From: Natrarchaeobaculum aegyptiacum
Lineage (GTDB): Archaea; Halobacteriota; Halobacteria; Halobacteriales; Natrialbaceae
Length of the DNA stretch: 64,000 bases
Direction: 5' to 3'
Assembly (NCBI RefSeq): GCF_002156705.1
Contig: NZ_CP019893.1
Location: forward strand, 2,356,001-2,420,000
Below are positions 7,115 through 24,845 of this stretch, piece by piece (position 1 is the stretch's first letter; the number at the start of each line of letters is the position of its first letter). A model generated the notes under the pieces. It did no database searches, was not told the DNA's origin, and saw nothing but the letters and a program-made list of their open reading frames with translations. Position numbers and translations under genes: made by a program.

Positions 7115-7219
7115 CCGGGCGGCGTCGACGGCCGCCACGACGTCCGGTGCCGGCGCCTGCAGGCAGTTTCGATCGCTGAAAGGGCAAATGACTTACAGCG
7201 GGCCGGCGAAAGCGCCGAC

Positions 7220-8191: not shown

Positions 8192-8314
8192 GCCGAGCAG
8201 TTCGACCACGACGTGAACGTCGTCGTGGACGGTCAGCCGACGCGACCCTCTGCAGTTCCGGACGGACCGATTGTCGCGTAAACATTTAATCGGCGTCGGC
8301 ACCAAGGGCCGTCT

Positions 8315-8932: not shown

Positions 8933-9269
8933 GACGAACGTCTCTCGGCTCCTCCGTGAATCCGTACCGCTGACCTCGAATCAGCCGATCCCCGAACCGC
9001 ACGAATTTTGCACGCGACGGAACTGACTGACACCGTCCAGTTGAGTCGAAAACGGACCGTTTGCTCCAGACTCGAATCGCGTCTCACTCTCGTAGCCGGC
9101 CGTAGGACGATTCGAGCCGACGAACGACAGACTATATTGTGTGGTATGGGCAATATCTCGGCGCTCATCATCCCCGGAAACTGGTGACACCGATGGGGAA
9201 TCACGGGGGGTATTTCTCTGTCTGCAGAGCACCCCATGGTGGCTGTGTTTAGTATTGGGGAGTAAACGC
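8933..9269. other. intergenic stretch without a supported gene
   Basis: No coding frame with typical codon use was found. The open frames across it are antisense or Arg/Ser-rich. Short AT-rich tracts (ACTATATTGTGTGG near 9131) could be promoters. The motif AGTATTG occurs here near 9251 and again just before the next gene. Confidence 0.35.
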
Positions 9270-9278
9270 AATACTTAT
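9270..9278 (+). promoter_or_regulatory. TATA-like box of the VKOR-like gene
   Basis: AATACTTAT lies about 32 bases before the ATG at 9306. This spacing predicts a transcript with almost no leader, as is usual in haloarchaea. Confidence 0.45.
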
Positions 9279-9305
9279 GTCGACCGTCGCGCAACACAGT
9301 ATTGT

Positions 9306-9941: not shown

Positions 9942-10090
9942 AGCGACTACCGTTCGTCTCGAGGCCCGAACGCGAGTGCCGTCTCGCTGCGCGCTTCTCG
10001 CTCGTGTTCGACGACTGACCGCTTCGTTCCGCCGCTACATGTCGACGAAACAAGGGAACGCTTTTCACGTCACCGCCGTAACACGGGAAC

Positions 10091-11263
10091 ATGGTCGCAG
10101 AACTCCTCCCGCTCCAGACGGCAGGTGGTGCGTTACTCATCATCGGCGCGCTCGTGCTGGTCGTGGTCGTTGCCGCGTTACTCAGCGCGATCGAAATCGT
10201 CGACGCGTACGAGAAACGCGCCCTCACCGTCTTCGGCGAGTACCGCAAACTCCTCGAGCCGGGGATCAACTTCGTTCCCCCGTTCGTCTCGAACACGTAT
10301 CGTTTCGACATGCGAACCCAGACACTCGACGTCCCCCGTCAGGAAGCGATCACGCGCGACAACTCCCCCGTGACGGCCGACGCCGTCGTCTACATCAAGG
10401 TGATGGACGCCAAGAAGGCGTTCCTCGAGGTCGACAACTACAAGAAGGCAGTCTCGAACCTCGCCCAGACTACCCTCCGTGCGGTGCTGGGTGACATGGA
10501 ACTCGACGACACGCTGAACAAGCGCCAGGAGATCAACGCCCGCATCCGTCAGGAACTCGACGAACCCACCGACGAGTGGGGGATCCGCGTCGAGAGCGTC
10601 GAGGTCCGCGAGGTCAACCCCTCGAAGGACGTCCAGCGTGCGATGGAGCAACAGACCTCCGCCGAGCGAAAACGCCGTGCCATGATCCTCGAGGCACAGG
10701 GTGAACGCCGCAGTGCCGTCGAGAAAGCAGAGGGTGAAAAGCAAAGTGAGATCATCCGCGCACAGGGTGAAAAGCAGAGTCAGATCCTGGAAGCCCAGGG
10801 TGACTCGATTTCGACGGTCCTGCGCGCGAAGTCCGCCGAATCGATGGGTGAGCGTGCCATCATCGATCAGGGAATGGAGACGCTCGAGCAGATCGGCCAG
10901 AGCGAGTCGACGACGTTCGTCCTCCCACAGGAACTCACCTCGATGGTCGGTCGCTACGGCAAACACCTCTCGGGCAGTGACGTCGGCGAGCACGTCGACT
11001 CCCTCGAGAGTCTCGACTTCGACGAGGAGACCCGCGAACTGATCGGACTCGACGACATCGCCGAGATCATCGGCGAAATCGATCAGGAAGCCGAGATGGA
11101 CGTCGAGGCGATGGAACAGGAGGCCCAGGCGATCAAGGAAGGCGGCGATCCAGCCGAGATATCCGATCCGGAAGCGGTCATCGAAGAGATGGACCAGGAG
11201 TTCCAGACCGATGGCGGCGCCGAGTCAGTCGACGCCGACTCCGGGTCAGACCAGTCCAGATAA
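10091..11263 (+). CDS. SPFH/band 7 stomatin-like protein
   Basis: A 390-residue protein with one N-terminal membrane segment (about 12-34). A band 7 domain follows: VDAYEKRALTVFGEYRKLLEPGINFVPPF, then TLDVPRQEAITRDN and VRAV-type oligomerisation segments. A long Ala/Glu/Lys/Gln-rich coiled coil begins at KRRAMILEAQGER, with repeats of AEGEKQS and AQGEKQS. The last 90 residues are an acidic tail. Stomatins form membrane microdomains and often pair with NfeD proteins; the NfeD-like gene is two genes upstream. This one is about 100 residues longer at the C-terminus than typical archaeal stomatins. Confidence 0.88.
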   Translation: MVAELLPLQTAGGALLIIGALVLVVVVAALLSAIEIVDAYEKRALTVFGEYRKLLEPGINFVPPFVSNTYRFDMRTQTLDVPRQEAITRDNSPVTADAVVYIKVMDAKKAFLEVDNYKKAVSNLAQTTLRAVLGDMELDDTLNKRQEINARIRQELDEPTDEWGIRVESVEVREVNPSKDVQRAMEQQTSAERKRRAMILEAQGERRSAVEKAEGEKQSEIIRAQGEKQSQILEAQGDSISTVLRAKSAESMGERAIIDQGMETLEQIGQSESTTFVLPQELTSMVGRYGKHLSGSDVGEHVDSLESLDFDEETRELIGLDDIAEIIGEIDQEAEMDVEAMEQEAQAIKEGGDPAEISDPEAVIEEMDQEFQTDGGAESVDADSGSDQSR

Positions 11264-11369
11264 TCGGCCACTCCAGCCGACAGTCTCGATTCCCTGAAAC
11301 TCCAGAATCGGAGATCGAAGTGGAGCGAAACCTGTTTTACCGGTGGTCCCGTTCGTGGCTGTAGACACA

Positions 11370-11999
11370 ATGACGACACCCGACGGGGTCGACGACGAGA
11401 AGCGAGCGACCCTGCGCCGATTTGCCGCCCTCGGCGGGGCCACCTCGCTCGCTGGCTCCGGCCTCGCAGCGTCGGCCTCGGCCGATACGGGTGAAAGCGA
11501 CGCCCGCGACGCCATCGCAGGCTACCTCTCGCGGACGCCCGGTGCTCACTTCTCGAAGATCCGCGACGACCTCCAGCTCGGGACCGGCGAGACCCAGCAC
11601 CACCTCCGCCGACTCGAGGACATCGACGCCGTCGAACGCTACCGCGACGGCGACTACAAGCGATTCGTCCTCGCCCGCCGGTTCGACGAGTTCGAAAAGC
11701 AGGCGCTCGGCTACCTTCGCCGGGACACCCCGCGCGGGATGCTGATCGAACTGCTCGCGCGGCCCGACGCCAGCGCTCGCGACCTTGCCGACGCCCTCGA
11801 CGTCTCCGCACCAACGGTCAGCAAGTACGCCGGCGAACTCGAGTCGGCAGACCTCCTCTCCCGTGAGGACGGTTACGCCGTCGAACGCCCAGAGACGGTT
11901 CTCTTGCTGGTGGTGCGCTACGCCGACTCCTTCGGCGACCGGGCGACCGAGTTCGCTCGCAGCGCCGACGACCTGTTCGAGTACCACGGCGGCGACTGA
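11370..11999 (+). CDS. winged-helix regulator with Tat-like N-terminus
   Basis: A 209-residue protein. The N-terminal 45 residues are odd: ATLRRFAALGG followed by an Ala/Gly/Ser-rich stretch and SASADT, which looks like a twin-arginine signal or a weak membrane anchor. Two winged-helix-like domains follow. The first is around YLSRTPGAHFSKIRDDLQLGTGETQHHLRRLE and the second around PDASARDLADALDVSAPTVSKYAGELE. Both are typical of haloarchaeal MarR/ArsR-type regulators that reside in the cytoplasm. Start: ATG at 11370 (MTTPDG). Either the RR segment is a fortuitous or vestigial signal or the regulator is membrane-associated. Confidence 0.78.
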   Translation: MTTPDGVDDEKRATLRRFAALGGATSLAGSGLAASASADTGESDARDAIAGYLSRTPGAHFSKIRDDLQLGTGETQHHLRRLEDIDAVERYRDGDYKRFVLARRFDEFEKQALGYLRRDTPRGMLIELLARPDASARDLADALDVSAPTVSKYAGELESADLLSREDGYAVERPETVLLLVVRYADSFGDRATEFARSADDLFEYHGGD

Positions 12000-12223
12000 C
12001 CGATCCCCGTCGCCCGCGGTCGGCAGCGGTTGCTCGCGTCGATTTCTGCGCAGGAATCCGTCGTAGTCACTTCGAAAGCGGACCGGGACCGCTCCGTGAC
12101 AGTTGGCTAGCCGGAACCCACCCCGGTCGCTTTTGGTGCGTCCACCAGCCCAGGGCATCGGTCGGTGTGTCTACCCGTGGTGACTGCCGGTGCGATCGAT
12201 CGCCGTGGTGAAAATTCGACCGC

Positions 12224-12457
12224 CTAGACGGAGACTTTCCAGGTGGTGCTCGAGGAGTAGCCCCACTTTTCGATGTCGACGTCGTAGTCGCCTTCCTGTA
12301 GAGCGGTGATGTTCGACCCGACCTCCTTGGCAGTCATGCCCAGCTCCTGGCCGATGAGGCGGGATTTGAAGTACGTCTTCGTCGCGGCGTTCTCCCGGAG
12401 GTACTGGAGAATTTCGCGTTGTTTGGTGGTGAGGTCGGGGGCCATTGCCGTGCTCAT
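12224..12457 (-). CDS. small HTH-like protein (DUF7123-like)
   Basis: A 77-residue basic-acidic protein with a compact helix-turn-helix: LTTKQREILQYL, then KTYFKSRLIGQELGMTAKEVGSNI, and a C-terminal strand ending STTWKVSV. It is a conserved small haloarchaeal family that I recall as DUF7123. ATG at 12457; the second Met (residue 5) is possible. A TATATA-like box (12480-12485) is 26 bases upstream, predicting a leaderless transcript. A DNA-binding role is likely from the fold, but the target is unknown. Confidence 0.8.
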   Translation of the reverse strand: MSTAMAPDLTTKQREILQYLRENAATKTYFKSRLIGQELGMTAKEVGSNITALQEGDYDVDIEKWGYSSSTTWKVSV

Positions 12458-12479
12458 ACTGGTCGAAACGGGACGGCCG

Positions 12480-12485
12480 ATAATA
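12480..12485 (-). promoter_or_regulatory. TATA-like box of the DUF7123-like gene
   Basis: The minus strand reads CCCCTATTATCGG. The TATTAT core is centred about 26 bases before the ATG at 12457, the spacing of a leaderless haloarchaeal gene. Confidence 0.5.
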
Positions 12486-12661
12486 GGGGGTTTGGTACGT
12501 CAGGTTAACGCGTCTCCGTCTGGCGATTGTCGACCCGAGTAATCGACCAGTACTGGCTGGAAAACCATTCGTTGGTACAGCGGGTTAATTCATTCTCGGC
12601 ACTGACCGTCACTGAAACTGACCGTTCCCGGTCGGTAAGGCCGTATTACGGCATCCGAACG

Positions 12662-13177
12662 TCACTCGTAGTGACCGACGACGAACGGACCGAACGCGCA
12701 GGCGACCGCTTCGCCGAGTGCGCGCGTCCGATCGGTCAATCCGTCCGTGAGGACACCCGCAGCACCCTCGCTCGTCGCGACGCCCTCGGTTTCGAGCAGG
12801 TCGTCCATCACGGGGCCTAACTCGCCACCGGCCTCGAGTCGCTCGGCGACGGTATCCGGTAGGCGAAGGGTCGGTCCGCCACCGCACTCGAGACGGGGTC
12901 CGTCGGTGACTGCCGCCCACATGACGAGCGAGAGGCCCGGTACGCCGTCGAGTTCCGCGACGCCACCCTCGAGGCCCACGCCGTAGTCGGCATCGGTAGC
13001 TTCGAACGCGCGAACAGCCCGGTTCTCGGCACCGGCGACGGTCTCGTCGATCGAACGGGGCTGTTCTGGCACGCCAGAGTCGACGCCGACGGCGGTGACT
13101 GTCGGCTCGTAGCGGGAGAGCGTCCGTTCGACGGCGGCCACTTTGACGGGATTGGTGCTTCCGACTGCGACGTTCAT
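12662..13177 (-). CDS. inosine/xanthosine triphosphatase (YjjX/DUF84 family)
   Basis: A 171-residue protein of the YjjX family, which hydrolyses ITP and XTP and so cleans the nucleotide pool. The opening MNVAVGSTNPVKVAAV is the substrate-binding GSxNPVK motif. VDSGVPEQPRS, GAENRA and YGVGLEGGV are the further conserved blocks, with the metal-binding acidic residue in the last. GAAGVLTDGLTDRT near the C-terminus is the lid segment. The length is normal for the family. The gene stands alone on the minus strand. A small hairpin lies immediately upstream of the start codon. Confidence 0.87.
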   Translation of the reverse strand: MNVAVGSTNPVKVAAVERTLSRYEPTVTAVGVDSGVPEQPRSIDETVAGAENRAVRAFEATDADYGVGLEGGVAELDGVPGLSLVMWAAVTDGPRLECGGGPTLRLPDTVAERLEAGGELGPVMDDLLETEGVATSEGAAGVLTDGLTDRTRALGEAVACAFGPFVVGHYE

Positions 13178-13179
13178 GC

Positions 13180-13203
13180 CGGGAATTGGAGTTCCCGTTT
13201 TTT
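13180..13203. other. hairpin with T-run next to a start codon
   Basis: CGGGAA-TTGGAG-TTCCCG forms a perfect 6-base stem, followed on the plus strand by six T. Read on the plus strand it looks like an intrinsic terminator, yet the genes upstream on that strand are absent. On the minus strand it lies 3 bases before the YjjX-family ATG and would place a stem at the ribosome entry site. Confidence 0.4.
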
Positions 13204-13311
13204 GGGATTCACGTTCGCCGCCGACACTCCTCTGCTTTAATCCTCTGATTGTTCATACCAGATCCTGCGAATTACCGCTTTTCGAGCGGTGACTGGCGAG
13301 AAATTCGAAAG

Positions 13312-13319
13312 CTTTAAAC
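13312..13319 (+). promoter_or_regulatory. TATA box of the tfb gene
   Basis: CTTTAAAC preceded by CGAAAG (a plausible BRE) is a good archaeal TATA/BRE pair. It lies about 80 bases before the ATG, predicting a leader of about 55 bases. Confidence 0.5.
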
Positions 13320-13396
13320 CTTGAGTCTCGGAACGGAGTAGGTAACGACTCCGTCCGGACTTTTGCGGCCGTCGTCCGGGCGGTCCTCGCCACCGT

Positions 13397-14380
13397 ATGA
13401 CCAACGCATCACCGAACACGAGAGTACGACGTAACGACCCCGAAACGACCGAAGAGGAATCTGCCGAACGCGAACACGACGACCTTGCCTGTCCCGAGTG
13501 TGCGGGCAACCTCGTCGTCGACGACGAGCACGGCGAGACGGTCTGTGAAGACTGTGGGCTCGTCGTCGAGGAAGATTCCGTCGACCGCGGCCCCGAGTGG
13601 CGTGCGTTCGACGCCGCCGAGAAGAACGAGAAGTCCCGCGTCGGTGCCCCCACGACGAACACGATGCACGACAAGGGGCTGTCGACCAACATCGACTGGC
13701 GGAACAAAGACGCCTACGGGAACGCGCTGGGCTCGCGCCAGCGAGAGAAGATGCAGCGCCTGCGAAAGTGGAACGAGCGCTTCCGCACCCGCGACAGCAA
13801 GGAGCGGAACCTCAAACAGGCGCTTGGCGAAATCGACCGGATGGCCTCCGCGTTAGGACTCCCGACGAACGTCCGCGAGACCGCGTCGGTCATCTACCGT
13901 CGTGCACTCGACGAAGATCTCCTGCCGGGACGCTCGATCGAGGGCGTCTCGACGGCCTGTGTCTACGCCGCCGCTCGTCAGGCTGGCGTCCCCCGCTCGC
14001 TCGACGAGATCGCCGACGTGAGCCGCGTCGAGAAGAACGAGATCGCCCGCACCTACCGCTACGTCGTTCGCGAGCTGGGCCTCGAGGTCCAGCCTGCCGA
14101 CCCGGAGAGCTACGTCCCCCGGTTCGCGTCGGGACTTGGCCTCTCCGACGAGGCCGAACACCGCGCGCGCAGCCTGCTCCAGAACGCCAAGGAGAAGGGC
14201 GTCCACAGCGGCAAGTCGCCGGTCGGCCTCGCCGCCGCCGCGGTCTACGCCGCTGCCCTCCTGACCAACGAGAAGACCACGCAGGCGGCCGTCTCGGACG
14301 TCGCGGACATCTCCGAAGTGACGATTCGAAACCGCTACCACGAACTGCTCGAGGCCGAAGAGACCCTCGGCCTGGCCTGA
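13397..14380 (+). CDS. tfb: transcription initiation factor IIB (TFB)
   Basis: A 327-residue general transcription factor that bridges the TATA-binding protein and RNA polymerase. The N-terminal zinc ribbon has CPEC and CEDC (residues about 32-55). The B-reader region is RGPEWRAFD followed by the linker GAPTTNTMHDKGLST. Two cyclin folds follow, with EIDRMASALGLP starting the first and AQP-type ADPESYVPRFA starting the second; VTIRNRYHEL near the end contributes BRE recognition. An acidic/polar extension of about 25 residues precedes the ribbon. Haloarchaea usually carry several tfb paralogues, so this may be one of a set. Confidence 0.95.
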   Translation: MTNASPNTRVRRNDPETTEEESAEREHDDLACPECAGNLVVDDEHGETVCEDCGLVVEEDSVDRGPEWRAFDAAEKNEKSRVGAPTTNTMHDKGLSTNIDWRNKDAYGNALGSRQREKMQRLRKWNERFRTRDSKERNLKQALGEIDRMASALGLPTNVRETASVIYRRALDEDLLPGRSIEGVSTACVYAAARQAGVPRSLDEIADVSRVEKNEIARTYRYVVRELGLEVQPADPESYVPRFASGLGLSDEAEHRARSLLQNAKEKGVHSGKSPVGLAAAAVYAAALLTNEKTTQAAVSDVADISEVTIRNRYHELLEAEETLGLA

Positions 14381-14489
14381 AACGGGTTCTGGTCTTTTAC
14401 CGTCGGTCTGGGCCGGCGGTCCCCATCGTCTCGGCTATCGTACTCGACGAAGCGACACCGTTTTTCTCCTGTCTTTCGACATCTCGTGC

Positions 14490-15170
14490 ATGGCTATCGA
14501 CTTCGATTCGTTCGTCCTCACCGCGGCGACTGCCGATCTGTCCGACGAACCCGGCGCACGCGGGCATGCGGATCTCGTTGAATTTCGGATGGACATGGCC
14601 GACGGGCCACTCGCCGCCCTGAAAGCTTACGACGGCGAGTTACCCATTCTGGCGACTAACCGCCCGACCTGGGAGGGTGGTGAGTACGACGGTACCGACG
14701 CCGACCGGCTCACAGACCTTGCCGAGACGACCGCAATTGAAGCTGTCGAGGCGATCGACGTCGAACTCGAGTCGATCACGGCCGGCGACGCCGACGCGGT
14801 GCTCGAGATGGCACGCGAGCGAGACGTGGCCGTCGTCGCCTCGGCTCACGACTTCGAGGGGACGCCCGACGAAATCGAACTGATGGAGACGCTTACGACG
14901 GCCTGTGAGCATGCCGACGTCGGCAAACTCGCGGTCACCGCCAAGGATCGGGACGATACTCTCGCGCTCTTGGCTGTCACCCACAAACTCGCAACCGACG
15001 GCAACACGGTGGCGACGATGGCGATGGGCGAGGCGGGCAGCCATACGCGAGCCGTCGCTCCAGTCTACGGCTCGCGGATCGGCTACGCGCCCGTCGATCC
15101 AGCCGAGGCGACCGCACCGGGACAGTACGATCTCGAGACGCTCGCGGAGCTGGTCTCGCAACTCGAGTAA
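14490..15170 (+). CDS. aroD: 3-dehydroquinate dehydratase, type I
   Basis: A 226-residue type I dehydroquinase, step 3 of the shikimate pathway to aromatic amino acids. VEFRMDMADG gives the substrate-binding Glu/Arg pair. ASAHDF holds the catalytic His. VGKLAVTAKD holds the Schiff-base Lys. MAMGEAGSHTRAV and PVYGSRIGYAPV complete the active site. The length is normal. The gene is preceded by a T-rich stretch and is monocistronic here. The partner enzyme, 3-dehydroquinate synthase II, is 11 kb away on the other strand. Confidence 0.93.
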   Translation: MAIDFDSFVLTAATADLSDEPGARGHADLVEFRMDMADGPLAALKAYDGELPILATNRPTWEGGEYDGTDADRLTDLAETTAIEAVEAIDVELESITAGDADAVLEMARERDVAVVASAHDFEGTPDEIELMETLTTACEHADVGKLAVTAKDRDDTLALLAVTHKLATDGNTVATMAMGEAGSHTRAVAPVYGSRIGYAPVDPAEATAPGQYDLETLAELVSQLE

Positions 15171-15290
15171 CTCCACGAGTACGACACGGCGTCCTCGTTG
15201 CTCGTTTTACTCTTTCCGGGCCACGTTTAGACGCCGCTCAGTTGACGTCTCGACCGGGATTATGTAACGTTGAGCGAGGACGCGGCGAGT

Positions 15291-15503
15291 ATGCCGTCTC
15301 AACTCGCCCGGTTCACCGACCGATGCGTCGATTTGTCCCCGGATGCTGTCATTGGCGAGCCAGCACCGGCGTTCGAGAAGGGTGATGGCGGCTACGCTGA
15401 CTGGGTAATCGTCTCAATTCACTGTCTCAGAGAGTACCTGAACCAGCCCTACCGACGATTACCGAAATCACGCTGGTGCAGATCGAGGAATCCTGGTTGG
15501 TGA
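15291..15503 (+). pseudogene. N-terminal remnant of an IS5-type transposase
   Basis: About 70 residues: QLARFTDRCVDLSPDAVIGE, then GGYADWVIVSIHCLREYL and NQPYR. This closely follows the N-terminal helical domain of haloarchaeal IS5-family transposases. The homology stops after the PYR/SYR position, where a full-length enzyme would run on for about 200 more residues including the DDE catalytic residues. None of these is found downstream. I could not find terminal inverted repeats. It marks the left edge of the island of exported proteins. The open frame extends back to 15270. Confidence 0.6.
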
Positions 15504-15691
15504 CGTTGGAAACCGTTCTGTCGCCACCACCGCTCGCGCTCCCACGATCACGCAGACGGCTCACCCACAGAAAGCGAGCGACGCCGTTCGGAAAAACGTA
15601 GGACACGACCTGACTCGACCGGCGATAGCGGTCGACGAGGTGCTAGTGCTATCAAACAGCACTTCGGTTCGAACGACGGCTGGGTGGCTCG

Positions 15692-16666
15692 TCAGGCCAG
15701 TGGACAACCGGCGTTGTTGAACGCATCCAGTTCGTCCCTGAGTCTCCCACCCTCGTCCTGCCAGACCGGATCGCCTCCGCTGACCCCGCTACCGACCGGG
15801 TTGTCCGCGAGCCATGTATCGGCGTCGTCGACCGTCTCGTCGATACAGTTACTCTCGACACCCGATTCTCGGTTGAGCTTCGCCGCGACGAGCTGCCGAA
15901 AGAGGTTCACTGTCTGGTCGCCTCTGACTGGCTGATTCATCACTGTAATCGCATCGTCTCTCGAATATGTAACTCCACCAACACCGATTTCGTCGACCGG
16001 CCAGGACGTCGGATTGTTCCGCCAGAATCCCTGTGTTCGCGGTTCTTCGGGTTCCGGATCCGGCGGCTCTGGCTCTTTCGGGCAGTCTGCATCGGCGTGG
16101 ATCACGATCTCTTCCCCGAGGTCGTCGAGGAGTTCGTCGGTTGCCTCGAGGCCTTTCGTCAGGGTCGCGACACCGATGCACACGCACGCTCCGGTCTCGA
16201 GAGAAACGGCGTTTTTCACGCCGACTATCGACCGGTCCCGGTCTGCGCCGAGGTAGAAATCGACCCGGCGGTCACCGTCGTATTCCGAGTAGTCTGCATC
16301 GTACGCGTCGTCGACGAGCCGTGGCCAGTTGTCGTCACCGATCCAGACGCACACCGTCTCTTTCCCCTGGTTGCAGATCCTGAGGACGTTGTCGAACCAG
16401 GTCCGGGAGTCGGAGTTGACGCCGTTGCCACCGTTGCCGCTCGCCCCGAAGTCGAGGGTGACGTGACCGCGACCGTCGTCGCCGACGAAATTGTCACCGT
16501 GTTTCGTATCGCACGGCGTCAGGCCGAGATAGGCGTCCCCGTCTTCGGCGACCGCGACGCTGACGGCGCGCTGGGATTCTACGCGGCTGAACGCGCCCGA
16601 ACCGACGGCGATACTCGCACCGAGTCCCAGTCCGGAGACGCCGGCGATGAACGGTCGTCGTTTCAT
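15692..16666 (-). CDS. Tat-exported DUF1102-like protein with TQGFW domain
   Basis: A 324-residue exported protein. MKRRPFIAGVSGLGLG is a twin-arginine signal followed by a small-residue stretch and SGAFSRVESQR. The N-terminal domain (about 30-205) matches the neighbouring DUF1102-like proteins: AVAEDGDAYLGL, VNSDSRTWFDNVLRICNQGKE and ETGACVCIGV. After a Pro/Glu linker the C-terminal 110 residues begin TQGFWRNNPTSWP and contain GGVTYSRDDAI and LVAAKLN. This module is also found at the ends of bacterial surface proteins. Six or more Cys residues could form disulfides outside the cell. It is the largest of five adjacent paralogues. Confidence 0.78.
   Translation of the reverse strand: MKRRPFIAGVSGLGLGASIAVGSGAFSRVESQRAVSVAVAEDGDAYLGLTPCDTKHGDNFVGDDGRGHVTLDFGASGNGGNGVNSDSRTWFDNVLRICNQGKETVCVWIGDDNWPRLVDDAYDADYSEYDGDRRVDFYLGADRDRSIVGVKNAVSLETGACVCIGVATLTKGLEATDELLDDLGEEIVIHADADCPKEPEPPDPEPEEPRTQGFWRNNPTSWPVDEIGVGGVTYSRDDAITVMNQPVRGDQTVNLFRQLVAAKLNRESGVESNCIDETVDDADTWLADNPVGSGVSGGDPVWQDEGGRLRDELDAFNNAGCPLA
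16361..16513. repeat. near-identical direct repeat, copy 1 (partner 17059-17211)
   Basis: These 153 bases match 17059-17211 at an offset of 698 with four mismatches by my reading, and positions 16432-16513 are identical to 17130-17211. Both copies encode the same block of two adjacent DUF1102-like genes (from CDTKHGDNFVG to ICNQGK). Flanking parts of the genes are much less alike, which suggests gene conversion or selection on this block. Confidence 0.85.
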
Positions 16667-16692
16667 ATCGTCTCACTCATCTGTACGATGCT

Positions 16693-17364
16693 CTAGTCGT
16701 GTTTTCCGTCCCGGGAACCGGCTTCCGGCGAGTCGGCAGTGATGGTAATCGTTCCGTCGAAGAGGTGCTCGGCTTTCTCCGCGTCGACGTCTTTCGTCAC
16801 CACCCGCACACCGATACACTCGCACTCCCCGACAGGGAGTTCGAACTCGTTCGCCTGCCCGACGATCGAGCGCAGGTTTTCGTCGCCGCTGCTCCCGGCG
16901 GCTTCACCGGTGTAGAAGGCGAGTCGCCACTCGTTGCCCCACTCGTCGAGGAACTCGTCGTCGACGTCGGTCGGATCCTTGTAGTGTGAGCTCACTCCCT
17001 TCGGAAAGTTAGCAGCGTCTTCCAGTGCATCGCTGCTGACGTAGACGTTCGCGTCGGCTTTCCCCTGGTTGCAGATCTTGAGGACGTTGTCGAACCAGGT
17101 CCGGGAGTCGGAGTTGACGCCGTCGCCGTCGTTGCCGCTCGCCCCGAAGTCGAGGGTGACGTGACCGCGACCGTCGTCGCCGACGAAATTGTCACCGTGT
17201 TTCGTATCGCATGGCTTCAGCCCGAGGTACGCGTCTTTGTCCTCTGCCACAGCGATCTTCACGTCGCGCTGGGATTCCACGCGACTGAACGCACCCGAAC
17301 CGACGAGTGCGCTGGTTCCGATTGCGGTACTTCCGACACCGAGCAGAAAGTTGCGTCGTTGCAT
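16693..17364 (-). CDS. Tat-exported DUF1102-like protein
   Basis: A 223-residue exported protein. MQRRNFLLGVGSTAIG is a clear twin-arginine signal, followed by VGSGAFSRVESQRD as in its neighbour. The mature part has AVAEDKDAYLGLKP, CDTKHGDNFVGDD, VNSDSRTWFDNVLKICNQGK and VGECECIGV, the order typical of these beta-sandwich proteins. It ends in an acidic, Asp-rich tail with no anchor. Start: the ATG at 17364 is right for a Tat signal; 17382 would add six residues. It shares a nearly identical 153-base segment with the downstream paralogue. Confidence 0.78.
   Translation of the reverse strand: MQRRNFLLGVGSTAIGTSALVGSGAFSRVESQRDVKIAVAEDKDAYLGLKPCDTKHGDNFVGDDGRGHVTLDFGASGNDGDGVNSDSRTWFDNVLKICNQGKADANVYVSSDALEDAANFPKGVSSHYKDPTDVDDEFLDEWGNEWRLAFYTGEAAGSSGDENLRSIVGQANEFELPVGECECIGVRVVTKDVDAEKAEHLFDGTITITADSPEAGSRDGKHD
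17059..17211. repeat. near-identical direct repeat, copy 2 (partner 16361-16513)
   Basis: Second copy of the intragenic repeat described for 16361-16513. The longest exact match is 17130-17211. Confidence 0.85.
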
Positions 17365-17744
17365 GGTCATCGTGTACTGCATCGAATAGTCCTGTGGTGG
17401 GGTCGTCCCGGCACCCCAGGGTCGTTCGACGCGTCACTCGACACCGATCACGGGACCACAGTTGTGTATACACCGCGAGCAGTTGTTCCACGGGGTGCCA
17501 GCAGTATCTGCAGGGACGACGTGCATGACCGCACCCGGTTCCTGGAGTCTCGACTGACTCCGATTGCAAGAGCCGAAACCTCTCACTACTATCTCCTCTC
17601 TGAACGACCGTCAGTACCCGCCCGTCCTGTCGGAACGAGGAATCCGAAACGTCCTCGGGAATCCACGGAGATACCGAGGAGCCCTTCCGCCAACCGGACT
17701 CCGGCCTACGCGTCGCTCGAGGCCACGCGATTCCGGTCCCGCAC
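17365..17744. other. intergenic stretch without a supported gene
   Basis: It separates two members of the exported-protein family on the same strand. The open frames on both strands look non-coding (Arg/Ser/Thr-rich). It probably holds the promoter of the gene at 16693-17364, but I see no strong TATA box. Confidence 0.35.
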
Positions 17745-18272
17745 TCACTTTTTCCTTCGGTGCGTGCGAACCAGCACCTGGTCGACGAGTACCTCGTTAG
17801 CGGACAGCCCGTACGTTCGCGTCGTCACGCTCACCGACAGGCACTCCCTCGCCGAAATCTCGATTGCGTTTCCGTCTCCCCGGATCGACTGCTCGTAGTT
17901 CCGGTTCGGATGAAACCGGACGGCAGGTTCGCCGCGTCCGTTCTTTCGAGGAGTCGTCTCGAGCCACACCTCCGCCGGCTCCTTCCCGCGGTTGCAAATG
18001 AAGAAAACATCGTCGAAGTACGACGTGGAGTCCGAGTTCACTCGATCGGGTGCGCCCCGCTTCTCGAGTTCGAGTTCGATCCGGTTCTCGTCGTGTCCCG
18101 CGTCCGTTTTGCCCGGCGGCGCTGGCGGTCCGCCATCTTCGTCCGGCGGGTGTACCGTCGTCTCGTCGTCGTCCGAGACGACCTCGGTGTTCGAGCGTCG
18201 GTAGAGGAACAGCCCCCCCATCCCCGCCAGTCCAAGCCCGCCGAGTCCAGTCAGGATCGTTCGTCGGTCCAC
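17745..18272 (-). CDS. RR-signal protein of the DUF1102-like group, divergent
   Basis: A 175-residue protein. MDRRTILTGLGGLGLAGMGGLFLYRRSN has a twin-arginine pair but a longer, more hydrophobic segment closed by RR, so it could be a membrane anchor rather than a cleaved signal. A Pro/Asp linker follows. The C-terminal part VNSDSTSYFDDVFFICNRGKEPAEVWLE is the same core as in the two preceding proteins, with matching Cys. NEVLVDQVLVRTH and a basic tail end it. It may be the anchor or cap member of the family; that is inference from topology. Confidence 0.7.
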   Translation of the reverse strand: MDRRTILTGLGGLGLAGMGGLFLYRRSNTEVVSDDDETTVHPPDEDGGPPAPPGKTDAGHDENRIELELEKRGAPDRVNSDSTSYFDDVFFICNRGKEPAEVWLETTPRKNGRGEPAVRFHPNRNYEQSIRGDGNAIEISARECLSVSVTTRTYGLSANEVLVDQVLVRTHRRKK

Positions 18273-18450
18273 GGTGATCTCTCCGGTCGGCCGCTCGAGC
18301 CGGATTTGAACAAACCCATTTCGGCCTGGGTGGTAAGTATACAGTCCCAGAAGTGAGATTATAGGTTCCCTTTAGTCGGCATCTGTTCCGGAACTGACCG
18401 AACCTGAAAATAAAACGAAAGTGACTGGTTCATCTACCGACCAGTCAGAT

Positions 18451-19008
18451 TCAACTCTTCTTCTCGGCGACGGCATTCATCGTTAGACCGTAGCTGCCGA
18501 CCTGAACGTCGTGAGTATCGATTCGCAACCCAGCAGCGAATCCCGCTCCGGTCTCGAGGTCGATCGGATCATCAGCGACGATTGCAGAGCGATCACTGTC
18601 TGCGACGTCGAATACATCAACATTCGGACCGTCGGTGCCATTTACGTCGAAGTGGACAGTGACAACTCGAGTTCCCTGATTAGTAACAGTGAAGAGTCCA
18701 TCACCGGCTTGTCCCGCGGTGTCGTTGGTGAATTCGTACACGGAGTCGCGACCCAGGCCACTAGGATTCGTACCGTTGAATTCGTCTTCGCGGATCCCGG
18801 GTAATTCAAATCGGATTTGATTGAAGTCGATCCAGGCTCGACCACCCTCATCAACGAGGTCAAACGCGAGGTACGCTTCTGGATCCATTTCGACGGTGAC
18901 ATCGAGCGTTCGATCTGTACCGATTACGCTGAACGCTCCGGAGCTGATGAGCGAACTGGCCCCGATCGCGAACCCGCCACCGCCGATGAGGAATTGGCGT
19001 CTATTCAT
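18451..19008 (-). CDS. Tat-exported DUF1102-like protein, low GC
   Basis: A 185-residue exported protein. MNRRQFLIGGGGFAIGASSL is a twin-arginine signal, followed by SSGAFSVIGTDRTLDVTVEMDPEAYLAFD, the entry block of the family. FTVTNQGTRVVTVHFDVNG is the core strand-turn-strand with the NQG turn. It has no Cys in the mature part, unlike the two proteins at 15.7-17.4 kb. Codon use is more AT-rich than the surrounding genes. It lies 28 bases from the next paralogue on the same strand and is probably co-transcribed with it. Confidence 0.75.
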   Translation of the reverse strand: MNRRQFLIGGGGFAIGASSLISSGAFSVIGTDRTLDVTVEMDPEAYLAFDLVDEGGRAWIDFNQIRFELPGIREDEFNGTNPSGLGRDSVYEFTNDTAGQAGDGLFTVTNQGTRVVTVHFDVNGTDGPNVDVFDVADSDRSAIVADDPIDLETGAGFAAGLRIDTHDVQVGSYGLTMNAVAEKKS

Positions 19009-19036
19009 GCTTCATCCTCGTCGAAAACGAGGGTAG

Positions 19037-19600
19037 TTACGTCTCCGCGTAGAACTTCAGTTCACCCGACACATCGTCGATATCGCCGAGGCCTTCCCAA
19101 GCATCTCGCAGGTAGAAAATCATATGGACGAAGATTTCATCACCGGGGCCGAGTTCTGGCGATTCCGAATCGAATCCTTCCGGATTCGCTGAATCGGGTA
19201 ACATGACGGCATCGAACTCCTCACTCTCCGACCAGAACATGCCAAGTGGATTATTTTCACCCCAGCCTCTGGCGGATTCGTGGTCGTCACTGACGTAGAG
19301 ATTGATGGTTTGGGATCCCTGGTTTTTGACCGAGAACACAGCATCGAACCTCGTATCCGCGTTTTCATTCAGGCCGTCTGCACCGTAGTCAGAGTTCGTG
19401 AAATCGAGTTGAATCTGACCGTTATCGGTCGTTGCGTAATCACTTTCTGGTTCGAGTGCAAGAAACGCGCTCGCGTCGTCTGCAACGTCGACTTCTAGGT
19501 CACGGTCCGCACTGACGACGGAAAACGCGCTCGCGCCGACGAGCGCGCTGGCTCCGATAGCTGTACTTCCAACACCGATCATGAACTTGCGTCGTTCCAT
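19037..19600 (-). CDS. Tat-exported DUF1102-like protein, low GC
   Basis: A 187-residue exported protein. MERRKFMIGVGSTAIGASALVGASAFSVVSADRDLEVDVADDASAFLALEP in order: twin-arginine signal, small-residue stretch, first strand. FDAVFSVKNQGSQTINLYVSDD is the conserved core. ELGPGDEIFVHMIFYLRD and the final GELKFYAET complete a beta-sandwich-like pattern. Start: ATG 19600 gives the normal Tat signal; the frame is open to 19693, but those extra residues are Arg-rich and non-hydrophobic. A TATA box at 19706-19718 fits a leader of about 85 bases. It is the promoter-proximal member of this pair. Confidence 0.75.
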   Translation of the reverse strand: MERRKFMIGVGSTAIGASALVGASAFSVVSADRDLEVDVADDASAFLALEPESDYATTDNGQIQLDFTNSDYGADGLNENADTRFDAVFSVKNQGSQTINLYVSDDHESARGWGENNPLGMFWSESEEFDAVMLPDSANPEGFDSESPELGPGDEIFVHMIFYLRDAWEGLGDIDDVSGELKFYAET

Positions 19601-19705
19601 GGGTTCGTAGTGGCTCCCGCGTCGTCCCCTCTCGTGGAACCGAATTGCCTCACCGTTCGGCCCTCGAGCGGGGCGACGCGTGTTCCGGTCCACGGCCGGT
19701 TCGAG

Positions 19706-19718
19706 GATATTAATATAG
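19706..19718 (-). promoter_or_regulatory. TATA box of the exported-protein pair at 18.4-19.6 kb
   Basis: The minus strand reads CTATATTAATATC, the most AT-rich core-promoter element in this part of the window. It would start transcription near 19685, leaving a leader of about 85 bases before the ATG at 19600. Confidence 0.5.
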
Positions 19719-20125
19719 AACCTCCGGGATTCGCAACGAACGAGTACGAATCCGGAAACTCCCTTTGCGGATTCAAACGGGCACGTACATCGGCCCGTTA
19801 AACCGGTCTTCCCAGATCACTCGAGTGTCGAAGGAATCCCGTTCCGTCCGTGAACGAGTACAGCGTCCGTGGATGCGTTCGACCTGCTGGTGATCCCAGC
19901 AGTGAACTATCGTTCGTCTACTCCAACCAGTTTACTCGTAAATCCTACCTGTTCTGATGCCAGATCATCTGTTGGTCTGAAAACTCACTTTTCGAGTCTC
20001 ACACCGATTCTGTGTCGAAGAAACGTCGGGATGGCTCGACGCCGACCACGTGTTCGTGGAATTACTGAAGGAACGGTTCACCGTACGGTTCGTTCGAATC
20101 CAGTATCACCTGGGGTGGGTCACGC
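19719..20125. other. intergenic divergent promoter region
   Basis: It lies between the exported-protein pair (minus) and a membrane-tethered regulator gene (plus). No supported coding frame is seen. Imperfect inverted repeats GGATTCG...CGAATCC occur near 19729-19755. It is lower in GC than the housekeeping DNA nearby and probably holds regulator sites. Confidence 0.4.
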
Positions 20126-20719
20126 ATGAAACACTCGCAAGCGGTATCCGACAGCCGTACCGATCGGTCTTCCGATATGACACTCTCGAAGGACGACATC
20201 CTCGAGGTGATGAGCAACAGCCGCCGCCGGTTCGTCTTTCACTATTTACGACAGCGAGGAACCGAACCGACGTCGGTTCGGCAGTTGTCCGAGCACGTCG
20301 CAGCCTGGGAACTCGAGAAAGACGTCACGGAACTCGCTTCCGAGGATCGCCGGCGGGTCCAGACCGCGTTGCATCAGTTTCACCTCCCCAAGATGGACGA
20401 CCTTGGATTCGTCGACTACGATGCTCGACGCGGTGAAGTGAAACTCACGGAGGAGACGGCCCAGCTCGACATTTACCTCGACATCGTTCCGGGTATCGAC
20501 GTCCCGTGGGGGTTGTACTACCTCGGACTCACGGGCGTCAACGTATGCGTTCTCACACTGGCGATGGTCGGCGTCTATCCGTTCTCGCTCGCGTCCGGGC
20601 TTTCCTGGGCGCTGTTCGTCGTGCTGACCTTCGGTGTCTCCGCGCTTGCCCACGCGTATATCAATCTCAATCAGCACCGCTACGGCATCGGTGACCGGCC
20701 GGCCGAACTCGATTCCTGA
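20126..20719 (+). CDS. membrane-tethered winged-helix regulator (DUF7344-like)
   Basis: A 197-residue protein with an N-terminal DNA-binding domain and a C-terminal membrane part. DDILEVMSNSRRRFVFHYL begins the winged helix; TSVRQLSEHVAAWE and RRRVQTALHQFHLPKMDDLGFVDYD are the family core that I recall as DUF7344. Two membrane helices follow (about 132-152 and 155-177). This is a one-component sensor layout in which the signal may come through the membrane. A second copy is at 23536. Its position between the exported-protein genes and the signal peptidase operon suggests it controls them. Confidence 0.78.
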   Translation: MKHSQAVSDSRTDRSSDMTLSKDDILEVMSNSRRRFVFHYLRQRGTEPTSVRQLSEHVAAWELEKDVTELASEDRRRVQTALHQFHLPKMDDLGFVDYDARRGEVKLTEETAQLDIYLDIVPGIDVPWGLYYLGLTGVNVCVLTLAMVGVYPFSLASGLSWALFVVLTFGVSALAHAYINLNQHRYGIGDRPAELDS

Positions 20720-20767
20720 GCATCCTGGGCGGCCGGCGTTGAATGCCGACCGGCCGCAGACGTGCGG

Positions 20768-22042
20768 TCACTCGCAAGCGTCCGCAGCTTCGCCGGTATC
20801 GAGGCCGTCACCGGAGTGTGTCCCGTCGTCGTTCACATCGTCGTCTCCATCGCCTCCGGTCGGATCGTCGGGGACGAGGTTCCTCTCGCTGTCGTCGTCG
20901 TTCACACCGCTATCGTCGCCGTCCGTCTCGTCCGGGGAACCTCTTTCATCCGGCCCTCCACTGTCATCTTCGCCATCCTCGTCGGTCCCCGACGACGGCG
21001 CATACGCGTACAGTGTCTCACCGTCGACGACGACGAAGTCGTCGTCCGTTTCGATGACGCGTCCGTTAGAGTCGATCGCGACATCGACGAGCCCTTCTAG
21101 CGTCTCGAGTTCGATCCGGGTGTCTGGTTCTTCGTCCGCGAGGATCGAGCCGCGTGAGATCCAGTCGTCGAAGGTTTCACGCTCGTATTCACGACGGACC
21201 CGCTTCAGTTCGTCCTCCGGCGGCGCGAGCCGGTCGGTCGCTTTTGCCCTGACGACAGCACCAAGCGCGAGAAGCGACACGACGAACAGGAGCGTCGAAC
21301 CGAGTGGCGCGGGAAGTACGGACTCCCGTTCGGTCTCGACCACCTCCGTTTCATCGACGGGTCGCTCTTCGTGAGCGGGGCCGTCGACCGTGTACACGTC
21401 GGTGTCTGTGTCGACGACGAGTTCGTAGGTCTCGGTTCGATCGACCGGGTCTCCGTCGACGACGCCAGTTTTGGAGACCGACGCGACGATGGTCGTCTCG
21501 ACGGTTCCGGGCGAGCCCCCGAGACTCTCTTCGATACGATCCGTCTCGTTCGCCGTCTCCTGGACGTCCAGCGAGAAGGAGGCGTCGAGTTCCTCACCGG
21601 GTTCGAACGAGTCGGCCGCTGCCGTGTCGAGTGTTTCGTTGACACGCCAGTGTTCGACGACCTCCTCACCGTCTTCGTCGACGGATCGGGTGACGCGTTC
21701 GAGTTCGAGGCTCGCGTCGACGTCACCGTCCTCGGCGTGATACGTGTACCAGAACGAACCCTCGAGCGCTGGCGAGATCGACGTGAAGTAGGTGGTTCGG
21801 TCGGTCAGTTCGGATCCGACCTCGAACACCTCGTTTTCTCGTTCGACCGTGGCACCGTGATCGAATCCGCCGGTTGTCGACCAGGCCTCAACCGTCTTCG
21901 TTTCGGTCGCCGTTTGTTCGGCTGCACTCGAGTACGTCGCGTACGCGCCGAACAGGCTCACCGCGAGCAAGACGATTACGACGAGCACGAACCACTGGTC
22001 GAGTGCCGTTCGAGCTCGAACGATCGCTCGTTCGGTATTCAT
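20768..22042 (-). CDS. DUF5305 membrane protein
   Basis: A 424-residue protein of the family I recall as DUF5305. One N-terminal helix (about 17-37, FVLVVIVLLAVSLFGAYATY) is followed by a large extracellular beta-rich domain, with FWYTYHAEDGDVDASLELERV and ELDASFSLDVQE in it. A second helix (about 238-258, GSTLLFVVSLLALGAVV) leads into a cytoplasmic acidic tail of 160 residues. A strong GGAGGT ribosome-binding site (22050-22055) precedes the ATG. It follows the signal peptidase gene by 76 bases and is probably in its operon. DUF5305 proteins commonly neighbour this type of signal peptidase; the function is unknown. Confidence 0.8.
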   Translation of the reverse strand: MNTERAIVRARTALDQWFVLVVIVLLAVSLFGAYATYSSAAEQTATETKTVEAWSTTGGFDHGATVERENEVFEVGSELTDRTTYFTSISPALEGSFWYTYHAEDGDVDASLELERVTRSVDEDGEEVVEHWRVNETLDTAAADSFEPGEELDASFSLDVQETANETDRIEESLGGSPGTVETTIVASVSKTGVVDGDPVDRTETYELVVDTDTDVYTVDGPAHEERPVDETEVVETERESVLPAPLGSTLLFVVSLLALGAVVRAKATDRLAPPEDELKRVRREYERETFDDWISRGSILADEEPDTRIELETLEGLVDVAIDSNGRVIETDDDFVVVDGETLYAYAPSSGTDEDGEDDSGGPDERGSPDETDGDDSGVNDDDSERNLVPDDPTGGDGDDDVNDDGTHSGDGLDTGEAADACE

Positions 22043-22049
22043 CGTCGGT

Positions 22050-22055
22050 ACCTCC
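22050..22055 (-). promoter_or_regulatory. strong ribosome-binding site of the DUF5305 gene
   Basis: The minus strand reads GGAGGT, 7 bases before the ATG at 22042. Such a full Shine-Dalgarno sequence is unusual in this window and fits an internal gene of an operon. Confidence 0.6.
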
Positions 22056-22118
22056 TGGGGAGTCGACCGCTGTCGACCTGCCCCACTCCGTGATACTGTG
22101 ATGGTCCATCCATATCTG

Positions 22119-23276
22119 TCACCTCAGAAGGCTCCCCGGCCCGTCCGACCGTTTGCGGTCGCGGACCGCGATCGATCCCGTCCCGACCACGATGGCGAGT
22201 GGAAGTGTGAACACGCCGGTGACGACCGTCGCCGTCGCCGTCGTCGCGACCCACGGATGGATCGCGTGTAACTCGGCGAGCAGCGGCGGTGGCAAGACGG
22301 CGAAGTACCGGTACTCGGCGAACGAACGGAGGTAGTACCCCCGCTCGTCTGGTGCCGATATTTCGACGGTCGCGTTCGCGGACTCCCCGTGACCGAGCGT
22401 GTGCGGTCCTCCGTCGACGTCGATCCCACCGCTGGCGGGTTCGACGATCGAGACGACGGGAACGACGCCGACGTTGTGAAGTTCGAACGTGTGGACCTCG
22501 GACTCGCCGGCCGGAATGACGTCCGGCCGTTCGGAATCGAACTCGGCGCTGACGACACCCAGTTCCGTCGACCCCGACATCGCGAGCGTCGTCGCCAGCG
22601 TCACTGCGAAGAGGAGTACCGCGACGGCGAGGACGACTCGTCTGGCGTCGAACACGTTTCGGCGTGACCGCGTTCGCGAGCCGACTTCCCGCCGACGTGC
22701 CCCAGAGCGAAATGAGGCCGCGATCACCACGAGCCCACCGACGAGCAGGAGAGTTCCCAGGCCGGACGTACCGAGAATTGCGTCCGTTCCGAGCAGTGAC
22801 GCCAGCTGCCACTGGAGTGTTGCCAGTGCAGCGGAGACGGTCATCGCCGCCGTTCCCAGGTGTGGTATCGTAACGACGCCGCCGTCGAACTGCATCGCGG
22901 TCGCGACGATCTGGCCGTCGGTCACGTATGGCTCGCCCGCGTCCTGGTCCGTGACAGGGTTGGCGTCACCTCGAGTTACGTACCCCTGTTCAGTTTCGTC
23001 GACGATTCGGTGGGTCGTGAGCCCTCCGCCATCGGCCTCTTCAGCTTCGAAGACGACCACGTCACCCGTTTCGACGGAACGAGCATCCGCCGTGGGTATC
23101 GCGACGAACCCGTCGCCAGTCTCGATCGTGGGTTCCATGCTCCCCGACTCGACGTAACTCAACAGGATCGGCACGCCGAGGATATTCCCCGCGAGCAGCG
23201 CTCCACAGACGAGTATCGCCAGGAGCACCGCTATCTGGCTTCCGATCCCCCACCCGGTGTCGATCGACCCTCTCAT
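22119..23276 (-). CDS. signal peptidase I, ER/SipW type, with C-terminal extension
   Basis: A 385-residue membrane protease. After the first helix (about 13-40), SYVESGSMEPTIETGD holds the catalytic Ser (SGSMEPT), and LTTHRIVDE holds the His that replaces the bacterial Lys in archaeal/ER/SipW enzymes. RGDANPVTDQD is the conserved Asp region. The protease domain ends near residue 175, but the protein goes on. It has a second helix, an arginine-rich loop, a third helix and a beta domain (ELGVVSAEFDSERPDVIPAGESEVHTFELHNVG), then two more helices. The extension of about 200 residues is unusual. It is the first gene of a probable operon with the DUF5305 gene. Confidence 0.88.
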   Translation of the reverse strand: MRGSIDTGWGIGSQIAVLLAILVCGALLAGNILGVPILLSYVESGSMEPTIETGDGFVAIPTADARSVETGDVVVFEAEEADGGGLTTHRIVDETEQGYVTRGDANPVTDQDAGEPYVTDGQIVATAMQFDGGVVTIPHLGTAAMTVSAALATLQWQLASLLGTDAILGTSGLGTLLLVGGLVVIAASFRSGARRREVGSRTRSRRNVFDARRVVLAVAVLLFAVTLATTLAMSGSTELGVVSAEFDSERPDVIPAGESEVHTFELHNVGVVPVVSIVEPASGGIDVDGGPHTLGHGESANATVEISAPDERGYYLRSFAEYRYFAVLPPPLLAELHAIHPWVATTATATVVTGVFTLPLAIVVGTGSIAVRDRKRSDGPGSLLR

Positions 23277-23327
23277 CGGTACAGGCGCGCGTCGGCGCGT
23301 TCGATCGAACGACAGGGAATCAGTCAG

Positions 23328-23337
23328 TTTAGTATAG
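23328..23337 (-). promoter_or_regulatory. TATA-like box of the signal peptidase operon
   Basis: The minus strand reads CTATACTAAA, about 56 bases before the ATG at 23276, predicting a leader of about 30 bases. Confidence 0.45.
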
Positions 23338-23535
23338 AGGAACTAATCGCTGTCAATACTATCTTGTTTACTGATGAATCGAGCGACGGCGGGGAGGAAA
23401 CTTCGTTACCCCTTCCCGCTCAACATCCGACAGTGCTGTTCACACAACGAATTCTTTCACCAAGAAATGACCATCTTCGGTGTGGTATGTTACTGATAGC
23501 TAAGACGCTCGCTCCCGTCTCACGCCGTACAAGGG

Positions 23536-24126
23536 GTGGGGATCCCATTGACCGATTCACGACAGATACACAAGCATCAGGCAGTCGAACCGGATTCAGA
23601 TCACGTCGAGAAAGAACAGATCTTCACGACGCTGAGTAACCAGCGACGACGATGGGTGTTGCACTTCCTGCAACACCACGAAGAAGACCGCGTTCAGTTG
23701 CGAACGCTGGTCGACGTTCTCTCCGAGTGGGAGTACGAACGTCCCGCCGACGAACTCTCGTGGAAGGAGCGAAAGCGAGTGTATACCGCATTGCGGCAGT
23801 CACATCTCCCCAAACTCGCCTCGAGCGGCGCGATCGAGTATGACCGAACGCGAGGCGAGGTCGAGCTCACGGACGACGCACGCGAGTTCCAGCTGTACCT
23901 CGAGTACACTCCTGTGGACGACGTCCACTGGAACCAGTGGTACCTCTGGCTTACTGGTATCGCCGCGGTGATCGTCGGACTCGCGTGGCTGTCGGTCCCT
24001 CCGTTCGCCAACCTCTCGGGAATGGCACTCGCCACGGTGCTCCTCGGAATGTTCTCGACGATCGCGATCGTTCACACGTATACCACACGCCGAAACAGGA
24101 TTGCGGCGTCCGGGGGGCCGCCGTGA
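23536..24126 (+). CDS. membrane-tethered winged-helix regulator (DUF7344-like), second copy
   Basis: A 196-residue paralogue of the protein at 20126. The N-terminal DNA-binding part has TTLSNQRRRWVLHFLQHH, then ELSWKERKRVYTALRQSHLPKLASSGAIEYD and TRGEVELTDDAREF. Two membrane helices follow (about 136-155 and 160-180). GTG 23536 is the first start in frame, but TTG 23548 is possible; no ATG exists near the start. The stop codon overlaps the GTG of the next gene, so regulator and exported protein are translationally coupled. Confidence 0.76.
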   Translation: MGIPLTDSRQIHKHQAVEPDSDHVEKEQIFTTLSNQRRRWVLHFLQHHEEDRVQLRTLVDVLSEWEYERPADELSWKERKRVYTALRQSHLPKLASSGAIEYDRTRGEVELTDDAREFQLYLEYTPVDDVHWNQWYLWLTGIAAVIVGLAWLSVPPFANLSGMALATVLLGMFSTIAIVHTYTTRRNRIAASGGPP

Positions 24127-24578
24127 CTCGATCGAGACTCGTTATCGGCATCCTCCTCCTCGTCGGGGGTCTGGTACTCGTCGGTGCAACTGCCGGCGTC
24201 TCGAGTGTTACCCTCGATCGATCGCTCGGCGTGGCTATCGCCGACGACGCCGACGCAGCGATCGGCATCGAGCACCAACCCTCTACGGCGTCCGATCAGA
24301 ACGGAACTAGCGTCGAAGAGGTGTTCGTGACCAATCGCATCGAGGAACCCGTGACCGTGCACGTGACCGGCGTGAACGCTCCCGGTCTCGTCGATGTCGA
24401 ATCCCCAGAGACAGTCGACCCGGGAGAGCGTGACGTCGTTGCGGTGACGATCGACTGTCGACAGTCGACCGAGCCTGCACTCGTCGACGTGACCGTCACT
24501 GGCGGGGACCGTACGATCGAGCAGCCGCTCGAGGTCGAGCCCACGTGTGCCGAATCAAGTCAAAGCTCTGATGGATAA
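24123..24578 (+). CDS. short exported protein coupled to the regulator
   Basis: A 151-residue protein that starts with GTG at 24123, overlapping the regulator stop as GTGA. VTRSRLVIGILLLVGGLVLVGATAG is a Sec-type signal or anchor without the twin arginine of its relatives. SLGVAIADDADAAIGIEHQP then repeats the entry block of the DUF1102-like proteins upstream, and EEVFVTNRIEEPVTVHVTG repeats the core turn. A TVDPGERDVVAVTIDC strand and a short acidic tail end it. It is a minimal member of the same beta-sandwich family. The longer frame from 23937 is out of frame with the real regulator and not coding. Confidence 0.7.
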   Translation: MTRSRLVIGILLLVGGLVLVGATAGVSSVTLDRSLGVAIADDADAAIGIEHQPSTASDQNGTSVEEVFVTNRIEEPVTVHVTGVNAPGLVDVESPETVDPGERDVVAVTIDCRQSTEPALVDVTVTGGDRTIEQPLEVEPTCAESSQSSDG

Positions 24579-24845
24579 CGCGGTTCAGCCAGCGAAACGA
24601 CGTCCCGGGCAGTACGAGGATATCTGCACCAGGTCGCTCTCGGCCGCAGCCACCAGCCCGCTGGGTGCAGTCTCGGTCCCACCGTGGTACGCCATCGACT
24701 GACTTTCGAACCGACCGTGACCATCGAGTAACGTCACTGGATATTGCCGACCGGGAACTTCTGACGACCGAGAACCGGCCGATAGTACGGATTTCCAGAC
24801 GGTAATCGATCACTACCTATAGTGGCGGTCGTGGTCCGGCCGGTC

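Follow-up and report, generated by a model that had tools for sequence, protein, structure and literature searches.

A likely variant Tat-fimbria (tafi) locus in the haloarchaeon Natrarchaeobaculum aegyptiacum

Tat-fimbriae (tafi), which are among the few surface fibres made of subunits exported by the twin-arginine translocation (Tat) pathway, were reportedly described for haloarchaea by Galeva et al. in 2025 (iScience 28:111793). According to one published account, thin filamentous appendages have components that are exported by Tat, the core one being TafA (PMC12687288). Tafi are thus already published and have NCBIfam models of their own; what is new here is a variant organisation, which we found in a 64,000-nt stretch of Natrarchaeobaculum aegyptiacum DNA (hereafter the window). 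Our data suggest that a gene island in this window, between aroD and aroB, is very probably a variant tafi locus, encoding Tat-exported pilins that would be cut by a linked peptidase and joined into a donor-strand pilus. Like haloarchaeal tafi loci, the island combines twin-arginine pilin signals and pilin homology with linked genes for a Ser/His peptidase, DUF7344 proteins and a DUF5305 protein. It differs from them in that its subunits score below the equivalog cut-offs, there is no TafF, the TafC-like protein (F) is short, and an extra C-B-A array contributes an apparently tethered subunit and an added C-terminal domain. The donor-strand pili AbpA of Pyrobaculum (7UEG) and the Sulfolobus threads (7PNB) resemble the island’s pilins in predicted fold, but show no sequence match and have, as far as known, another gene context. 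Bacillus TasA/camelysin with SipW shares a Ser/His-type peptidase linked to filament protein genes and a strand-exchange fibre logic; in contrast, most island subunits have Tat rather than Sec signals, and the SipW model stays below its cut-off.

We give coordinates as positions within the window and letter the genes A-F, R1 and R2 (Table 1). Five tandem minus-strand paralogous open reading frames (ORFs), A-E, span 15692-19693, and R1 (20126), the DUF5305 gene (20768), the peptidase gene (22119) and R2 (23536) lie between E and F. A hidden Markov model (HMM) of the pilin family scored A at 158 bits, B at 179, C at 55, D at 141, E at 170 and F, a weak relative, at 26; any two of A-E are 27-59% identical. 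A common core is shared by A, B, D and E, whose N-terminal RR-x-[FIL] signals end in G(A/S)xAFS; the signal of F is Sec-like and has no RR. The best NCBIfam family matches are TafE and TafA for A, B, D and E, TafE (weakly) for C, and TafC for F. A profile of 85 family members matched chain C of PDB entry 9P0A at 1.3e-32, and single sequences did so at 1.3e-11 (E) and 1.6e-10 (B). The fold library lists this entry as “Structure of Natrinema sp. J7-2 Tafi pilus”; our literature search found no paper on it.

The ORFs named in an earlier reading of this DNA (the original prediction) are all present. Its five paralogues with RRx(F/I) signals and a common core were correctly described for A, B, D and E; C has the twin-arginine N-terminus but is not a typical exported copy, as set out below. 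The weak sixth relative at the far end, F, was borne out. Its “DUF1102-like” label is a weak one: E scores 28.6 against the PF06510 (DUF1102) gathering cut-off of 22.2, which many close relatives also exceed; A-D fall below, and the NCBIfam Taf models fit A-F better. In our Pfam scan DUF1102 was found in E only, DUF7344 in R1 and R2, and DUF5305 and Peptidase_S26 were also matched.

We scanned 317 family members with a simple heuristic and found twin-arginine signals in 257 and none in 56. An A-[FVYW] junction was present in 219 of the 257 twin-arginine members and in 31 of the 56 others. These counts replace the RR invariance seen in alignment A2, which we discounted because its members had been picked by RR pattern. 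That both kinds of export signal lead into the same junction is consistent with, though no proof of, a single dedicated peptidase. The bootstrap of our pilin tree had not fully converged. In the tree, E and D fall with Natronococcus pilins encoded by two successive genes downstream of peptidase-DUF5305 (100/95, 99/94), D pairing with one of them (99/94); A and B join, at a weak fork, longer pilins from Natronosalvus and Natrialba, among others.

The island’s peptidase exceeds the cut-off of TIGR02228, the archaeal/endoplasmic reticulum (ER)-type signal peptidase I model (67.7 bits against 51.85), and its Ser46 and His89 are invariant across 28 sequences, a Ser/His rather than Ser/Lys pair. The model for SipW of Bacilli (NF046067) gave 46 bits, short of its cut-off of 190. 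A family-by-family search of the organism’s own genome revealed three archaeal-type peptidase genes, one in the island, one in a second taf-like cluster and one elsewhere. Relatives of the locus were recovered with the peptidase alignment; a scan for close relatives with the DUF5305 protein as query found nothing. In complete peptidase-class neighbourhoods from named genomes (n = 52), pilin genes lie within 6 kb in 52/52, DUF7344 in 47/52 and DUF5305 in 40/52, and this linkage of pilins, peptidase and DUF proteins is far beyond chance. The set of Ser/His peptidase, DUF7344 and DUF5305 is common to the window and to loci L056-L061. The canonical order, best checked in L059, is DUF5305, TafF, TafE, TafA, DUF7344, TafC, peptidase; going by the lettering, the DUF7344 regulator is probably TafB and the peptidase probably TafD. 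The TafA model scores above its cut-off in 19 of 293 genomes of the order.

We performed an AlphaFold2 prediction of E from an 85-row alignment, which shows a beta-rich domain (mean predicted local distance difference test score, pLDDT, 74.7) with residues 10-29 unstructured ahead of a first strand (32-39) of moderate confidence. The leading solved-structure matches in Foldseek were FimA (6r7e, 5nkt), Pyrobaculum bundling pili (7ueg), Tafi (9p0a) and the Sulfolobus 0406 filament (7pnb), a list that is weak per entry yet consistent, and that fits donor-strand pili. TasA was not recognised among the Foldseek matches listed for E, and A-F had no Pfam or NCBIfam match to the TasA/camelysin family. 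Taken together, the 9P0A match, the predicted fold and the conserved linkage support a donor-strand fibre with a dedicated peptidase and Tat signals.

These results also bear out the core of what the original prediction had said of the system as a whole, although the system was already known. Its ER-type signal peptidase is confirmed by TIGR02228 and the invariant Ser/His pair, and its DUF5305 protein and two regulators between the pilins match PF17231 and PF24035. It had suggested checking co-occurrence across haloarchaea, where the linkage is conserved in the 52 complete neighbourhoods, and the fold, where for E donor-strand pili lead the solved-structure matches. Of its extracellular multi-subunit fibre or coat, the fibre is supported by 9P0A homology, predicted fold and linkage, but a coat is less likely than a pilus. 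The major, minor and anchor roles that it gave to the paralogues are putative. A relation to AbpA agrees with the place of 7UEG near the top of the Foldseek list, but a direct relation to TasA/camelysin found no counterpart in sequence. The Tat signals it had called a twist are present but are no novelty, since Tat export defines tafi.

Beyond the homology, signals, catalytic residues and linkage shown above, we infer the following scheme of processing, polymerisation and filament formation, subunit roles and function. A, B, D and E would fold in the cytoplasm before Tat export, and F, perhaps with other minor subunits, would be exported via Sec. The linked Ser/His membrane peptidase would cut all of these before the AFS motif, and the freed N-terminal strand would complete the beta-sandwich of a neighbouring subunit, such that a thin pilus could grow by donor-strand complementation. 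The shaft probably consists of E together with D; B and A may be alternative or tip subunits, with A displaying its TQGFW domain, and C, uncleaved and without a donor strand, is the likely membrane base. The DUF5305 protein would be a membrane-anchored accessory, and at a guess an assembly or holding platform, while R1 and R2 would regulate. The DUF5305 protein is predicted with good confidence (pLDDT 84) to have a transmembrane segment, an extracellular all-beta domain, a second transmembrane segment and a cytoplasmic domain; Foldseek returned only diffuse beta-sandwich matches at low template modelling (TM)-scores, none informative, and we therefore assign it no function.

Two subunits depart from the common plan. 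C has a twin-arginine N-terminus followed by a hydrophobic segment and a linker, and lacks the AFS cleavage motif and the first core strand. It groups with a protein of locus L111 in the tree (100/99), and its anatomy recurs in L108 and L111, which argues against decay. Its sequence suggests a tethered subunit able to accept but not donate a strand, and the missing cleavage motif and N-terminal strand make it a candidate membrane base or anchor. A carries a C-terminal TQGFW domain, 86 residues of which align at 45% identity with an exported protein of 206 aa in L177; in another family of the order, relatives of this domain exist as stand-alone exported proteins. The domain was not found in the other taf loci compared, and no homologues were found on the plasmids searched. 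Other members of the A/B group bear different C-terminal regions, one of them a Pfam beta-helix. Stand-alone exported SQGYWKNHPEAWP-domain proteins, adjoining a histidinol-phosphate-aminotransferase-like gene, are encoded at L177 1348-1968 and, as a tandem pair, at L179 466-1104 and 1315-2094.

The island occupies the site between TFB-aroD and ORF 24822-aroB. Two same-genus genomes (L188, L189) show the order aroD, ORF 24822, a 150-aa gene, aroB and have none of the taf genes in between. Taf genes are found at the same site in Natrinema, Natronococcus, Natronorubrum, Natronolimnohabitans and Natronosalvus, and the peptidases there share about 58-62% identity with the island’s. This pattern looks less like a mobile element than like a long-standing taf site at which the genes have been lost or re-gained, and it offers a natural comparison of taf presence and absence at one chromosomal site within one genus. 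We also considered a tRNA-targeted integrative element, which is unsupported, as no tRNA was found within the 64-kb window.

A and B are adjacent and are sisters in the tree (98/98), as expected of a plain recent tandem duplication with no gene conversion. This account is unlikely given an 82-bp run that is identical in the two genes: third-position identity is 1.0 over residues 61-75 and 0.93 over residues 76-90, against 0.47-0.53 before residue 46 and 0.27-0.60 after residue 105. One duplication by itself would not give a patch of complete third-position identity with about 50% on either side, and L089 and L095 have comparable patches of 77 and 74 bp, respectively. The simplest reading of the A/B patch is gene conversion between paralogues.

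Several observations weigh against a tafi locus as the identity of the island. None of A-F reaches an NCBIfam Taf equivalog cut-off (top bits against cut-off: TafE at most 76/155, TafA at most 36/190, TafC 58/410, TafF 18/420), and these models found no TafF counterpart in the island. At 55 bits, an L086 pilin that is by eye very close to 9P0A likewise stays below the TafA cut-off; what the cut-offs delimit is therefore a single lineage of orthologues and not tafi as a whole. The model of E is only moderately confident, and its Foldseek E-values are weak (best 1.5e-3, TM-score about 0.4). We know of no filament from N. aegyptiacum, and the cutting of Tat precursors by the linked peptidase is a step we infer. 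Instead of discrete pili, the proteins might make up a coat or matrix at the cell surface, associated with the S-layer or with vesicles: the paralogues are many and non-identical, some have large C-terminal domains, and camelysin-type proteins can be surface-bound. We consider such a coat very unlikely, because the nearest solved relative, 9P0A, is a pilus, the fold neighbours are donor-strand filaments, and the accessory genes are the same in canonical tafi loci. A tafi remnant that has decayed or fallen silent, with duplicated, partly degenerate subunits that build no functional fibre, is also highly improbable. The missing TafF, the lack of a cleavage site in C, a lower G+C content (54-57% at 18-20 kb) and the empty site in two same-genus genomes would fit a remnant, but all reading frames of the island are intact, the odd anatomy of C is conserved in two other loci, and TafF-like proteins are also absent from most taf loci at the same site.

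As a variant tafi locus, the island points to a modular, recombining form of these fibres, and it singles out C as a candidate base subunit and the linked peptidase as a candidate processing enzyme. More tentatively, it may represent a tafi subclass of Natrialbaceae and some other haloarchaea, a possibility we would put at somewhat below even. In such a subclass, tandem pilins would all use the same polymerising domain, their C-terminal display domains (TQGFW, beta-helix and others) would be interchangeable, a tethered strand-less subunit would form the base, and recurrent gene conversion between paralogues would diversify the cell surface, for instance in defence against viruses or to aid attachment. 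The locus makes testable the action of an ER-type signal peptidase on Tat substrates, and the start and anchoring of archaeal donor-strand pili.

Table 1. Features of the taf island, in window coordinates.
Feature	Coordinates	Strand	Evidence
A: Taf-type pilin domain (residues ~1-200) and C-terminal TQGFW domain; candidate display/tip subunit	15692..16666	-	TafE 2.5e-16; family HMM; C-terminal kin
TQGFW (WKNHPEAWP-like) domain of A, residues 211-324	15692..16036	-	Similarity to L177 exported protein
B: Taf-type pilin, Tat signal MQRRNF	16693..17364	-	TafE 1.7e-20, TafA 8.5e-9; 9P0A pilin 1.6e-10
Putative gene-conversion patch in A, 82 bp	16432..16513	-	Identity to B; third-position comparison
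Matching patch in B	17130..17211	-	Identity to A; third-position comparison
C: putative membrane-tethered Taf core, candidate base/anchor	17745..18272	-	Family HMM 55 bits; tree; anatomy shared with L108, L111
D: Taf-type pilin	18451..19008	-	TafE 9.3e-13; clade with Natronococcus pilin
E: Taf-type pilin, candidate major subunit	19037..19600	-	TafE 2.7e-21; DUF1102; 9P0A 1.3e-11; AlphaFold2/Foldseek
R1: DUF7344 winged-helix-type regulator, C-terminal membrane segments	20126..20719	+	PF24035 5.9e-28
DUF5305 protein	20768..22042	-	PF17231 5.9e-49; model pLDDT 84; peptidase-adjacent in most loci
Ser/His (ER/SipW-type) signal peptidase, extra C-terminal transmembrane segment and beta domain	22119..23276	-	TIGR02228; Ser46/His89
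R2: DUF7344 regulator	23536..24126	+	PF24035 1.7e-25
F: short TafC-like pilin relative, Sec-type signal	24123..24578	+	TafC 6.7e-16 over first 139/373 model positions
Taf island between aroD (14490-15170) and ORF 24822 / aroB (26169)	15171..24821	.	Same-genus and Natrialbaceae site comparison

For B we prefer a start at 17364 (MQRRN) and for E one at 19600 (MERRK), and the GTG start of F overlaps the R2 stop by 4 bp (GTGA). Elsewhere in the window, ORF 11343-11999 has a twin-arginine-like hydrophobic N-terminus followed by an apparent winged-helix regulator domain, which is unusual if the start is right.

Other taf loci contain further genes of interest. The L063 and L085 loci have very large genes (about 1,000-1,300 aa) between pilin genes, possibly giant adhesins. 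The second cluster in the organism’s own genome (L013, G000:C1:3772001-3792000) runs over 5175-14853 with NosD-like and NosL-like genes, a 578-aa Taf-type/NosL-like fusion, two more NosL-like proteins, and then the peptidase and DUF5305 in the same order. The joining of a Taf domain to a copper-chaperone-like domain there is odd, and a protein annotated as NosL, encoded on plasmid NC_013924 of Natrialba magadii, likewise matches the pilin domain.

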